Assembly (NCBI GenBank): GCA_024763035.1
Contig: JANTGG010000001.1
Span: 1 to 64,000, forward strand
DNA: 64,000 nucleotides
Direction: 5' to 3'
From: Desulfocapsa sp.
GTDB taxonomy: Bacteria > Desulfobacterota > Desulfobulbia > Desulfobulbales > Desulfocapsaceae
Below are positions 59,306 to 62,375 of the stretch, piece after piece. Numbering within the stretch: the stretch's first letter is position 1; every line of letters begins with the position of its first letter. Made by a program: the position numbers and the translations under genes. The notes beneath the pieces are model-generated. The model had not been told where the DNA came from. It made no database searches and saw only the letters and a program-made list of their open reading frames with translations.

Positions 59306-59329
59306 AAAAATGAATAATCATTCATTTTT
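59306..59329. promoter_or_regulatory. Palindrome 1 upstream of the dsr promoter (may also end pgi)
   Basis: AAAAATGAAT-AATC-ATTCATTTTT is a perfect 10-bp-arm inverted repeat. Its core TGAAT-N4-ATTCA recurs at 59390. It ends with five T, so it could also terminate pgi, but the stem is almost GC-free and would be a weak terminator. Confidence 0.55.
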
Positions 59330-59353
59330 CAGGATAATCAGATTCGTTTTTTG

Positions 59354-59382
59354 TTGACAAAGGTTACGTTCAGAGATATTCT
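59354..59382 (+). promoter_or_regulatory. Candidate sigma-70 promoter for dsrABD
   Basis: A perfect TTGACA is followed by a 17-bp spacer and TATTCT. It implies a start near 59389 and a leader of nearly 190 nt before dsrA. It sits between the two TGAAT-N4-ATTCA palindromes. Confidence 0.55.
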
Positions 59383-59389
59383 CCCTCGC

Positions 59390-59403
59390 TGAATGACTAT
59401 TCA
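59390..59403. promoter_or_regulatory. Palindrome 2, overlapping the predicted dsr transcription start
   Basis: TGAAT-GACT-ATTCA has the same arms and 4-nt spacing as palindrome 1. Its centre is 79 bp downstream of that of the first copy. It lies at about +1 to +15 relative to the predicted start, a typical repressor position. Confidence 0.5.
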
Positions 59404-59576: not shown

Positions 59577-60857
59577 ATGGCAAAGCATGATACCCCCATG
59601 TTGGACGAACTTGAAAATGGCCCATGGCCAAGCTTCGTTACCGACATTAAGCGCCAGGCTGAGAAAAATCCAGATTGTTGGGATATCTTAGGTCAGGTTG
59701 AACTGTCTTACAAAGATAGAATCACCCATTGGAAACATGGTGGAATCGTAGGTGTTTTCGGATACGGTGGTGGTATCGTTGGTCGTTATTCCGACGTTCC
59801 TGCACAGTTCCCCGGTGTTGAGCACTTCCATACCGTTCGTGTAAATCAGCCTGCTTCCAAGTATTATTCCACAGAGAATCTTCGTGCACTGATGGATCTC
59901 TGGGAGAAACATGGTTCCGGTATGACCAACATGCATGGTTCAACTGGTGATATCGTTCTGCTTGGCTGTCGTACCGAAGCTCTTGAGCCTTTCTTCTATG
60001 ATCTGACCCATGAAATGGGACAGGATCTCGGTGGATCCGGTTCCAATCTCCGTACTCCTGCAAACTGTCTCGGAGAGTCCCGCTGTGAGTGGTCCTGCTA
60101 CGATACAGAGGAAGCATGTCATCATCTGACCATGCATTATCAGGATGAGATTCATCGTCCAGCTTTCCCTTACAAATTTAAGTTCAAATTTTCCGGTTGT
60201 CCCAACGACTGTGTTGCAGCACTTGCCCGTTCTGACTTTGCTGTTATCGGTAACTGGAAAGATGACATCCAGATGGATCAGGCTGCAGTAAAAGAGTATA
60301 TTGCCGGAAATATTCCATCAAACGGTGGTTCCCATGCTGGCAAAGACTGGGGTCCGTTTGATATCCAGGCTGAAGTTATTGACCTCTGTCCCACCAACTG
60401 TATGTGGATGGAAGGTGATGAACTGAAGATTGACAACTCCGAGTGTACCCGTTGCATGCATTGCATCAACGTTATGCCTCGTGCCCTGCGTCCCGGTAAG
60501 GTTCGTGGTGCTTCCATCAATATCGGCGCAAAAGCTCCTATCTTGGATGGTGCGCAGTTTGCTACCCTTATCATCCCCTTCATCGAAGTTTCTGCTGATA
60601 ACGAGTTTGAGAATGTGATCGAAGTCATCGAGAACATCTGGGACTGGTGGATGGAAGTTGGTAAAAACCGTGAGCGTGTAGGTGAGACCATGCAGCGTGT
60701 TGGTCTGCCCACCTTTATTCAGGTTATGGGTCTTGATCCTATTCCACAGCATGTCCGTGAGCCTCGCTCAAATCCCTACGTGTTTTGGCAGGCTGAGGAA
60801 GTTCCAGGCGGTTTTGATCGCGATGTTGATGAGTTCCGTAAACGTCACGCCGCATAA
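59577..60857 (+). CDS. dsrA: Dissimilatory sulfite reductase subunit alpha
   Basis: DsrA is the alpha subunit of the siroheme enzyme that reduces sulfite in the cytoplasm (reductive type when paired with DsrD). The 426-aa protein has the N-terminal MLDELENGPWPSFVTDIKRQ, the siroheme/[4Fe-4S] cysteine region (NCLGESRCEWSC and KFSGCPNDCVAALARSDF), and an inserted ferredoxin domain (CPTNCMWMEGDELKIDNSEC, TRCMHCINVMPRALRPGK). A perfect AAAGGAGG ribosome site lies 7 bp before the ATG. The codon usage is simpler than in neighbours (frequent GTT, GCT), as expected for a very highly expressed gene. Confidence 0.98.
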   Translation: MAKHDTPMLDELENGPWPSFVTDIKRQAEKNPDCWDILGQVELSYKDRITHWKHGGIVGVFGYGGGIVGRYSDVPAQFPGVEHFHTVRVNQPASKYYSTENLRALMDLWEKHGSGMTNMHGSTGDIVLLGCRTEALEPFFYDLTHEMGQDLGGSGSNLRTPANCLGESRCEWSCYDTEEACHHLTMHYQDEIHRPAFPYKFKFKFSGCPNDCVAALARSDFAVIGNWKDDIQMDQAAVKEYIAGNIPSNGGSHAGKDWGPFDIQAEVIDLCPTNCMWMEGDELKIDNSECTRCMHCINVMPRALRPGKVRGASINIGAKAPILDGAQFATLIIPFIEVSADNEFENVIEVIENIWDWWMEVGKNRERVGETMQRVGLPTFIQVMGLDPIPQHVREPRSNPYVFWQAEEVPGGFDRDVDEFRKRHAA

Positions 60858-60912: not shown

Positions 60913-62040
60913 ATGGGTTACGATCCCGAAAATCCCATGGCGGACAGGATTACAGATATTGGTCCCCCACACTATTCAAAAATGCATCCCCCGATTATTG
61001 CAAATAACAAGGGTAAATGGCTGTGGCATGAAATCACCCAGCCCGGTGTACTTGTTCATAAAGCAGAATCAGGAGATGAATGCTGGACCGTACGTGTTGG
61101 TGCTGCCCGTCTGATTTCCATCGAGCTTATCCGCGAAATGTGCGACATCGCTGATGCGCATTGCGAAGGATATCTTCGTTTCACTACCAGAAATAATGTT
61201 GAGTTCATGGTAGATTCCAAAGATAAAGTTCAGCCTCTGCTGGATGATCTTGCCTCTCGCGGCAACAAGTTCCCCGTAGGCGGAACCGGAGCCGGTGTGA
61301 CCAATATCGTTCATACTCAGGGTTGGGTACATTGTCATACTCCGGCTACAGACGCTTCCGGTGTTGTTAAAGCCGTTATGGATGAGCTGTTTGACTACTT
61401 TGTCACCATGACACTTCCTGCACAGGTTCGTATCGCACTTGCCTGCTGTCTGAACATGTGTGGTGCTGTACATGCTTCCGATATCGCCATCCTTGGTGTG
61501 CATCGTAAGCCGCCGATGATCGACCATAGTCGTATCACCGGTGTCTGTGAGCTTCCCCTTGCTATTTCCGCCTGTCCTCTTGGTGCTGTTAAACCTGCTA
61601 AAGCAGAGGTGAATGGCGAAGAGATCAAGACCGTTAAGGTTAACAACGACCGTTGTATGTTCTGTGGTAACTGTTATACCATGTGTCCTGCAATGCCTCT
61701 TGCTGATCCTGAAGGTGACGGAATTGCGATTCTGGTTGGTGGTAAGGTTTCCAACTCCAGATCCCATCCGAAATTCTCCAAGCTGGTTATTCCATTCCTG
61801 CCCAACACTCCGCCACGCTGGCCTGAGACCGTTGAAGCTGTAAAGAATATCCTGGAGACCTATGCAGGAGATGCAAAGAAATACGAGCGTGTTGGCGAGT
61901 GGGCCGAGCGTATCGGTTGGGAGAAGTTCTTTGAAAAATGTAACATCCCCTTTACCGTCAAGTCTGTCGATGATTATCGTCTGGCTTATGACACCTGGCG
62001 TACTTCTACTCAGTTTAAGTACACCAACGCAATCAAGTAA
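60913..62040 (+). CDS. dsrB: Dissimilatory sulfite reductase subunit beta
   Basis: DsrB is the beta subunit partner of DsrA. The 375-aa protein contains [72 protein letters not shown], the cysteine region [20 protein letters not shown] and [11 protein letters not shown], and ferredoxin motif [25 protein letters not shown] precedes the ATG. It lies 55 bp after dsrA, with a 90-bp gap carrying a hairpin before dsrD. Confidence 0.98.
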
Positions 62041-62054
62041 TTGACCTTATGGGA

Positions 62055-62081
62055 GCAGTCGGAGGCATTACCTTCGGCTGC
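62055..62081 (+). promoter_or_regulatory. Hairpin between dsrB and dsrD
   Basis: GCAGTCGGAGG and CCTTCGGCTGC pair at 11 positions with two G-U pairs around a 5-nt loop. No T-run follows. It may stabilise the dsrAB message or set the dsrD:dsrAB ratio by partial processing. Confidence 0.5.
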
Positions 62082-62129
62082 GCCTCTTTGGTTACTTGCC
62101 TGATAACACTTTTTAGAGGAGTATGTGTT

Positions 62130-62375
62130 ATGGGAATGAGTGACGATGAAATTAAAGCTGCTATGATCGAAAAGGCCACGAAGGCCCCGAAACCGCAGCT
62201 GTATGTCAAGGATTTCTACAAATGTGATCCTGACTCCAAAGCTCGTAAGATCAAGAACCTGGCAAATGAGCTGGTTAAAGAGGGAGAGCTGATGTTCTGG
62301 TCCTCCGGCTCCACCACCATGTATGCCCGTCCTGACCGTATCAAGGATGAAGAGGGAGATGAGGGTGTAAACTAG
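62130..62375 (+). CDS. dsrD: Dissimilatory sulfite reductase activator DsrD
   Basis: DsrD is a small winged-helix protein that stimulates DsrAB in reductive sulfite users. The 81-aa protein starts at ATG 62130, with an AGAGGAG site; the track start at 62049 is inside the hairpin region. Sequence is DDEIKAAMIEKATKAPKPQL, YVKDFYKCDPDSKARKIKN and ELMFWSSGSTTMYARPDRIK, with an acidic tail. Presence of dsrD argues for sulfite reduction (or disproportionation) rather than sulfur oxidation. A strong terminator follows. Confidence 0.96.
   Translation: MGMSDDEIKAAMIEKATKAPKPQLYVKDFYKCDPDSKARKIKNLANELVKEGELMFWSSGSTTMYARPDRIKDEEGDEGVN

Follow-up and report, generated by a model that had tools for sequence, protein, structure and literature searches.

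A candidate FadR-type TetR regulator at dsrABD and further sulfate-respiration and energy genes of Desulfocapsa sp. and its relatives

Dissimilatory sulfate reduction powers much of the anaerobic carbon cycle, and a search of the open literature retrieved no described regulator covering dsrAB together with sat and apr. In a 64-kb stretch of Desulfocapsa sp. DNA (referred to here as the window), the promoter of the dsrABD operon is flanked by two copies of the palindrome TGAAT-N4-ATTCA, raising the question of whether these copies are operators and, if so, of which protein. Genome comparisons point to a FadR-type TetR repressor, possibly activating from an upstream site, as the protein most likely adapted to serve as master regulator of sulfate respiration.

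Both palindromes are exact at the positions where an initial annotation had placed them (Table 1), and they exceed chance. From base composition, 0.065 exact matches would be expected in 64 kb, and the probability of at least two of them in the 288-bp gap between pgi and dsrA is ~4e-8; no further copy was found in the 64-kb window, even at one mismatch. The TTGACA-N17-TATTCT promoter (59354-59382) proposed to lie between the palindromes and the distance of 79 bp between their centres were likewise confirmed. The transcription start of dsrA was inferred to lie 7 nt past the -10 box, and all operator positions at this gene are counted from there. The ORF following dsrB has no NCBIfam match and is named dsrD-like from its position and the usual make-up of dsrABD operons.

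Table 1 Operators, promoter elements and genes of the dsr locus (positions in the window)
Feature	Position	Strand	Remarks
Distal operator TGAATAATCATTCA (predicted)	59311..59324	.	centre ~-71.5 from inferred start; position conserved in family genomes
-35 element TTGACA, dsr promoter	59354..59359	+	invariant in 14 genus sequences
-10 element TATTCT, 17-bp spacer	59377..59382	+	start inferred ~59389
Proximal operator TGAATGACTATTCA (predicted)	59390..59403	.	centre ~+8.5, over inferred start; same place across order
dsrA, first gene of controlled operon	59577..60857	+	TIGR02064
dsrB	60913..62040	+	TIGR02066
dsrD-like ORF	62049..62375	+	likely start ~62130; position after dsrB

The dsrA upstream regions, whose alignment was proposed in the initial annotation, were read in 29 relatives and showed the pair to be conserved within the genus, where genomes with both sites have a spacing of 78-80 bp and centres at -71.5 (or -70.5/-72.5) and +8.5. 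In the 14-sequence genus alignment, the operator arms are 96-99% and the -35 box 100% conserved, compared to 64% for the stretch from the distal site to the -35 box. General promoter conservation as sole cause was discarded, as unrelated promoters share the motif and the arms are conserved but the linker is not. Both palindromes are supported as conserved operators of a regulator, as far as can be predicted from sequence. The +8 site is present in 14/14 TetR-bearing genomes read from other families of the order, where the distal site is usually absent. Within the family of the window itself, several genera have kept the distal (-72) site alone and lost the proximal one. Because the two dsrA sites were gained and lost independently across families and genera, they are regarded as separate units.

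Such independence weighs against looping between the two dsrA operators via cooperative repressor binding, a function suggested for the pair in the initial annotation. The fixed spacing within the genus would agree with looping, as would the two dsrA sites that lie 91 bp apart in G083, a genome from another family; most targets of the motif, however, have a single site, and 79 bp correspond to ~7.5 turns at 10.5 bp per turn. TetR dimers are not known to form loops. With sites that are not kept together and many single-site targets, looping finds no support and appears very improbable. Extremely unlikely is the alternative function suggested for the distal palindrome, i.e. that of the pgi terminator. 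Its 10-bp stem with a T run (-6.1 kcal/mol) would suit a terminator, but the stem is A/T-rich, no terminator call was made at this palindrome, and the identical motif occurs at promoters without any gene end. Moreover, in G002, G018 and G006 the pgi stop is located ~150 bp further up while the palindrome remains at -71.5; since the distal site does not track the pgi stop, this function was rejected.

Exact sites number 15 in the window's genome (G000; reversed control 0) and 13, 15, 14 and 22 in four relatives from the genus (reversed controls 0, 2, 0 and 0), i.e. 79 in the five genomes versus ~19 expected from composition and 2 in the reversed control. Those of the window's genome locate at dsrA (two), the dsrM operon, atpI-atpB, atpF-atpH, nuoA, a cytochrome c3 gene, a PhsA-like operon, the TetR gene and a few others, with two situated inside coding sequences and one where a terminator is likely. 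Targets repeated between genomes are atpI, atpF, nuoA, c3, SulP, YeeE/TusA, PhsA-like and tetR, and the relatives additionally have sites at SulP, a YeeE-TusA-DsrE locus, a multihaem cytochrome/Tmc-like operon and HU. Imperfect sites, slightly weaker than the exact motif, were detected just 3' of the -10 box of sat (TGAATGNNTGTTCA) and aprB (TGAGTGATGGTTCA) in nearly all genus genomes; at a matrix score of at least 10, the 159 kb of sat/apr loci contain 24 matches, essentially all of them at the sat and aprB promoters. The dsrMKJOP operon carries a site in most genus members as well as in seven other families. The 2.5-Mb genome G083, which lies outside the order, harbours 8 exact sites, and 7 of these are at yeeE, dsrA (two), atpB, tetR, dsrC and nuoA; it is also the genome in which the dsrC site was seen. 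In G069, which has the TetR gene and lacks a dsrA site, the 3 exact sites all lie away from these genes. The atpI site sits within the 3' end of hemL, and the five informative hemL codons over it are identical in four species (3/46 in the preceding stretch; P ~1e-6); protein-coding constraint was rejected as the cause of this site. The dedicated dsr regulator postulated in the initial annotation is thus retained as a predicted regulator but not as a dsr-specific one, as the motif extends over the full set of sulfate-respiration and energy genes.

The TetR-family protein encoded by one of the recurrent targets, P0001 (G000:C34:23895-24494, minus strand), matches the Pfam domains TetR_C_4 'YsiA-like' (PF08359; 1.1e-21) and TetR_N (PF00440; 3.5e-13). 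Its best PDB matches are all Bacillus FadR (5gp9/5gpc, 1vi0, 3whb), and it shares 35% identity with FadR of B. halodurans; the closest named records are from Desulfocapsa/Desulfobulbaceae MAGs. Like Bacillus FadR (YsiA), it combines TetR_N with a YsiA-like C-terminal domain and has the FadR recognition helix, the recognition segment VADGTIYLYFNNK being identical to that of 5gp9 and V37-K49 being invariant in 30 orthologs. In Bacillus, FadR governs the degradation of fatty acids, with long-chain acyl-CoA as effector; in contrast, control of fatty-acid degradation genes, which characterizes this subfamily, was not found at the exact sites examined, no beta-oxidation genes being recognised beside the exact sites of G000, G008, G009 and G083 or at the sites read in G012 and G002. 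The sites found here are instead at genes for sulfate respiration, ATP synthase and complex I and are mostly single 14-bp operators. The dsrA site corresponds to the first 14 bases of the Bacillus FadR consensus (TGAATGAMTANTCATTCA), and a TGAATGA...TCATTCA-type operator may be common to Bacillus FadR and the present regulator. The P0001 gene has its own promoter covered by a site (TGAATGAATAACCATTCA, ~+4.5). Sites at the gene's own promoter recur in nearly all 30 relatives and in the majority of 80 named loci, and the tetR promoters carry TGAATGAATNNNCATTCA(TTCA). In view of its gene bearing the motif that marks each core step of sulfate respiration as well as ATP synthase, the FadR-like protein is likely to be the master regulator of sulfate respiration across this large group of sulfur bacteria. 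Each palindrome is accordingly predicted, with a probability of about 0.84, to be a single-dimer operator of one FadR (YsiA)-type TetR regulator, P0001, acting on sulfate-respiration and energy genes.

Within a phylum set of 247 genomes, this TetR was detected in 107 (E<=1e-30) and dsrA in 122. Among genomes sampled across families, a dsrA site is present in 16/32 with and 2/27 without the TetR (Fisher P=5e-4; ranking the raw best scores of the same sample gives a weaker result, P=0.055), and 15/15 further TetR-bearing relatives have one. Half of the TetR-bearing genomes outside the order are devoid of the dsrA site, and the link therefore holds for one clade only. In the tree, the TetRs of operator-bearing genomes fall on one side of a branch (98/89), the outgroup branch being long; in this group, the dsrA sites of G037 and G053 were confirmed later, and G001, G010, G011, G016 and G019 were placed without a dsrA reading. 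The two exceptions with a site and no TetR are G200 (81% complete, with TetR-bearing relatives) and G051. Five lineages have apparently lost the TetR gene: the dsrA site is absent from G034, G025 and G045, decayed in G040 (where it is missing at sat and dsrM too) and kept in G051, with gene loss being less sure in G034 and G025 because these genomes are incomplete. G021 has the distal dsrA site and no detected ortholog. G012, G013 and G014 have sites and no detected TetR; since greA, its neighbour, is missing as well or lies at a contig end, these absences are probably assembly gaps, and the three genomes were set aside as counter-examples. The 1.7-Mb reduced genome G051 no longer has the regulator gene between greA and purD but retains a strong dsrA operator (L282), which seems to be true gene loss, either recent or accompanied by use of the site by another protein.

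The presence of the dsrA site in G051, which has no ortholog between greA and purD, and the commonness of such dyad operators would be compatible with some other protein binding the motif, be it a second TetR or a member of another family, and with the FadR-like gene being just one more target. This appears improbable considering that P0001 is the sole FadR-like TetR of G000 (which has one other, weak TetR match), that its recognition segment is the one of Bacillus FadR, and that site loss or decay accompanies gene loss in G034, G025, G045 and G040, the absences in G012, G013 and G014 looking like assembly gaps. As regards the mode of action of P0001, the sites downstream of the -10 box are in repressor positions, their centres relative to inferred starts being +4.5 (tetR), +8.5 (dsrA), +8.5 to +13.5 (c3), +13.5 (sat), +15.5 (atpF), +18.5 (apr) and +19.5 (SulP). 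The upstream sites, mostly about whole helical turns apart, occupy positions that activators use, i.e. -71.5 (distal dsrA site; -61.5 and hence one helical turn away in G029), -70.5 (atpI), -50.5 (nuoA) and -42.5 (PhsA-like), and those at -42, -50 and -71 are at odds with simple repression. A protein that is mainly an activator or dual, with the -42.5, -50.5, -61.5 and -71.5 sites on approximately one helix face in class I/II-like fashion and the downstream sites serving for tuning, would account for these positions, for the one-turn shift in G029 and for the retention of the distal dsrA site alone in some genera; TetR activators do exist, e.g., FasR (PMC7382501). Such a protein is nevertheless unlikely, if by no means far-fetched, as most sites (tetR, proximal dsrA, c3, sat, atpF, apr and SulP) are 3' of the -10 box. 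Judged from these positions, repression is most likely the main mode of P0001, with activation from the upstream sites being possible.

Rex operators are of the TTGTGAA-N4-TTCACAA type, and the TGAA half-sites of the present motif are 6 apart, not 4 as in a Rex-type site. HcpR belongs to the CRP/FNR family and recognizes TTGTGA-N6-TCACAA or atTTGAccnnggTCAAat (PMC545781). Both were excluded as binders by motif mismatch, bearing out an early impression that the palindromes are neither HcpR nor Rex sites. Both are known for sat/apr in Desulfovibrio only: the predicted HcpR regulon likewise comprises sat and aprBA (Rodionov 2004, PMC545781) but differs from the present one in that dsrAB is absent and ATP synthase and complex I are not named in the available part of its description, and NADH-sensing Rex is likewise a repressor acting at sat, in Desulfovibrio vulgaris, with dsrAB not named as target in the portion of the account at hand (PMC7531388). 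A TetR-type repressor has also been proposed for the SulP cluster for sulfate uptake of Desulfobacteraceae; in the accessible text it is a local one, described with neither a dsr/sat/apr/atp regulon nor an operator (PMC11887813). No regulon covering dsr, sat, apr and ATP synthase was found in the open literature, and novelty is provisional because subscription papers and RegPrecise lay outside this search.

P0001 is proposed to bind at its own promoter and at sat, aprBA, dsrABD, dsrMKJOP and dsrC as well as at the genes for sulfate and sulfur transporters, ATP synthase, complex I, cytochrome c3 and the PhsA-like reductase. Bound to the proximal dsrA site over the start, the protein would most likely block initiation and hence repress, while at the distal site, a class I activator position, it may either activate in addition or make repression stronger. 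If the protein behaves like FadR, its release would be brought about by an acyl-CoA-type metabolite, which would couple the machinery for electron acceptors and ATP synthesis to the carbon status of the cell; acyl-CoA as effector is a guess, drawn from homology because no beta-oxidation gene was seen among the exact sites. If it holds, electron-acceptor use and ATP synthesis would follow carbon supply, and models of sulfur disproportionation and isotope fractionation would be affected. A tentative scenario, conceivable rather than probable, is that an ancestor common to Desulfobulbales and several further lineages of the phylum captured an acyl-CoA sensor of the FadR type. This sensor would have become the master switch that sets the whole sulfate-respiration pathway (sat to dsrC/DsrMKJOP), ATP synthase and complex I as one unit, with repression exerted between +4 and +20 and activation from upstream sites in helical phase. 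Given the candidate protein, the operator sequence and the targets listed here, whole-pathway control becomes directly testable in cultured Desulfocapsa or Desulfobulbus.

Some further observations concern individual loci and residues. A palindrome overlapping the end of a TlpA-like thioredoxin gene (TGAATACTAATTCA in L008 (1501-1514), L057 and L104; TGAATCCTAATTCA in L047) was left out as operator, because, placed at the gene end in four genomes and surrounded by A/T runs, it is likely to be a conserved terminator whose match to the pattern is fortuitous. Exact motifs next to genes for a LarE-like sulfur transferase (G000 L015:242-255) and an unnamed, MoaA-like radical SAM protein (G000 L006:104-117) may mark further targets, and a copy upstream of a gene for an HU-type DNA-binding protein (L056, L058; G009, G002) possibly links the regulon to chromosome structure. 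TetR residues 47-50, following the recognition helix, differ between genomes, with NNK[FY]DIL mostly in those with the dsr operator and [EQHKR]NKDDIL mostly in those without it, and may represent a specificity marker.
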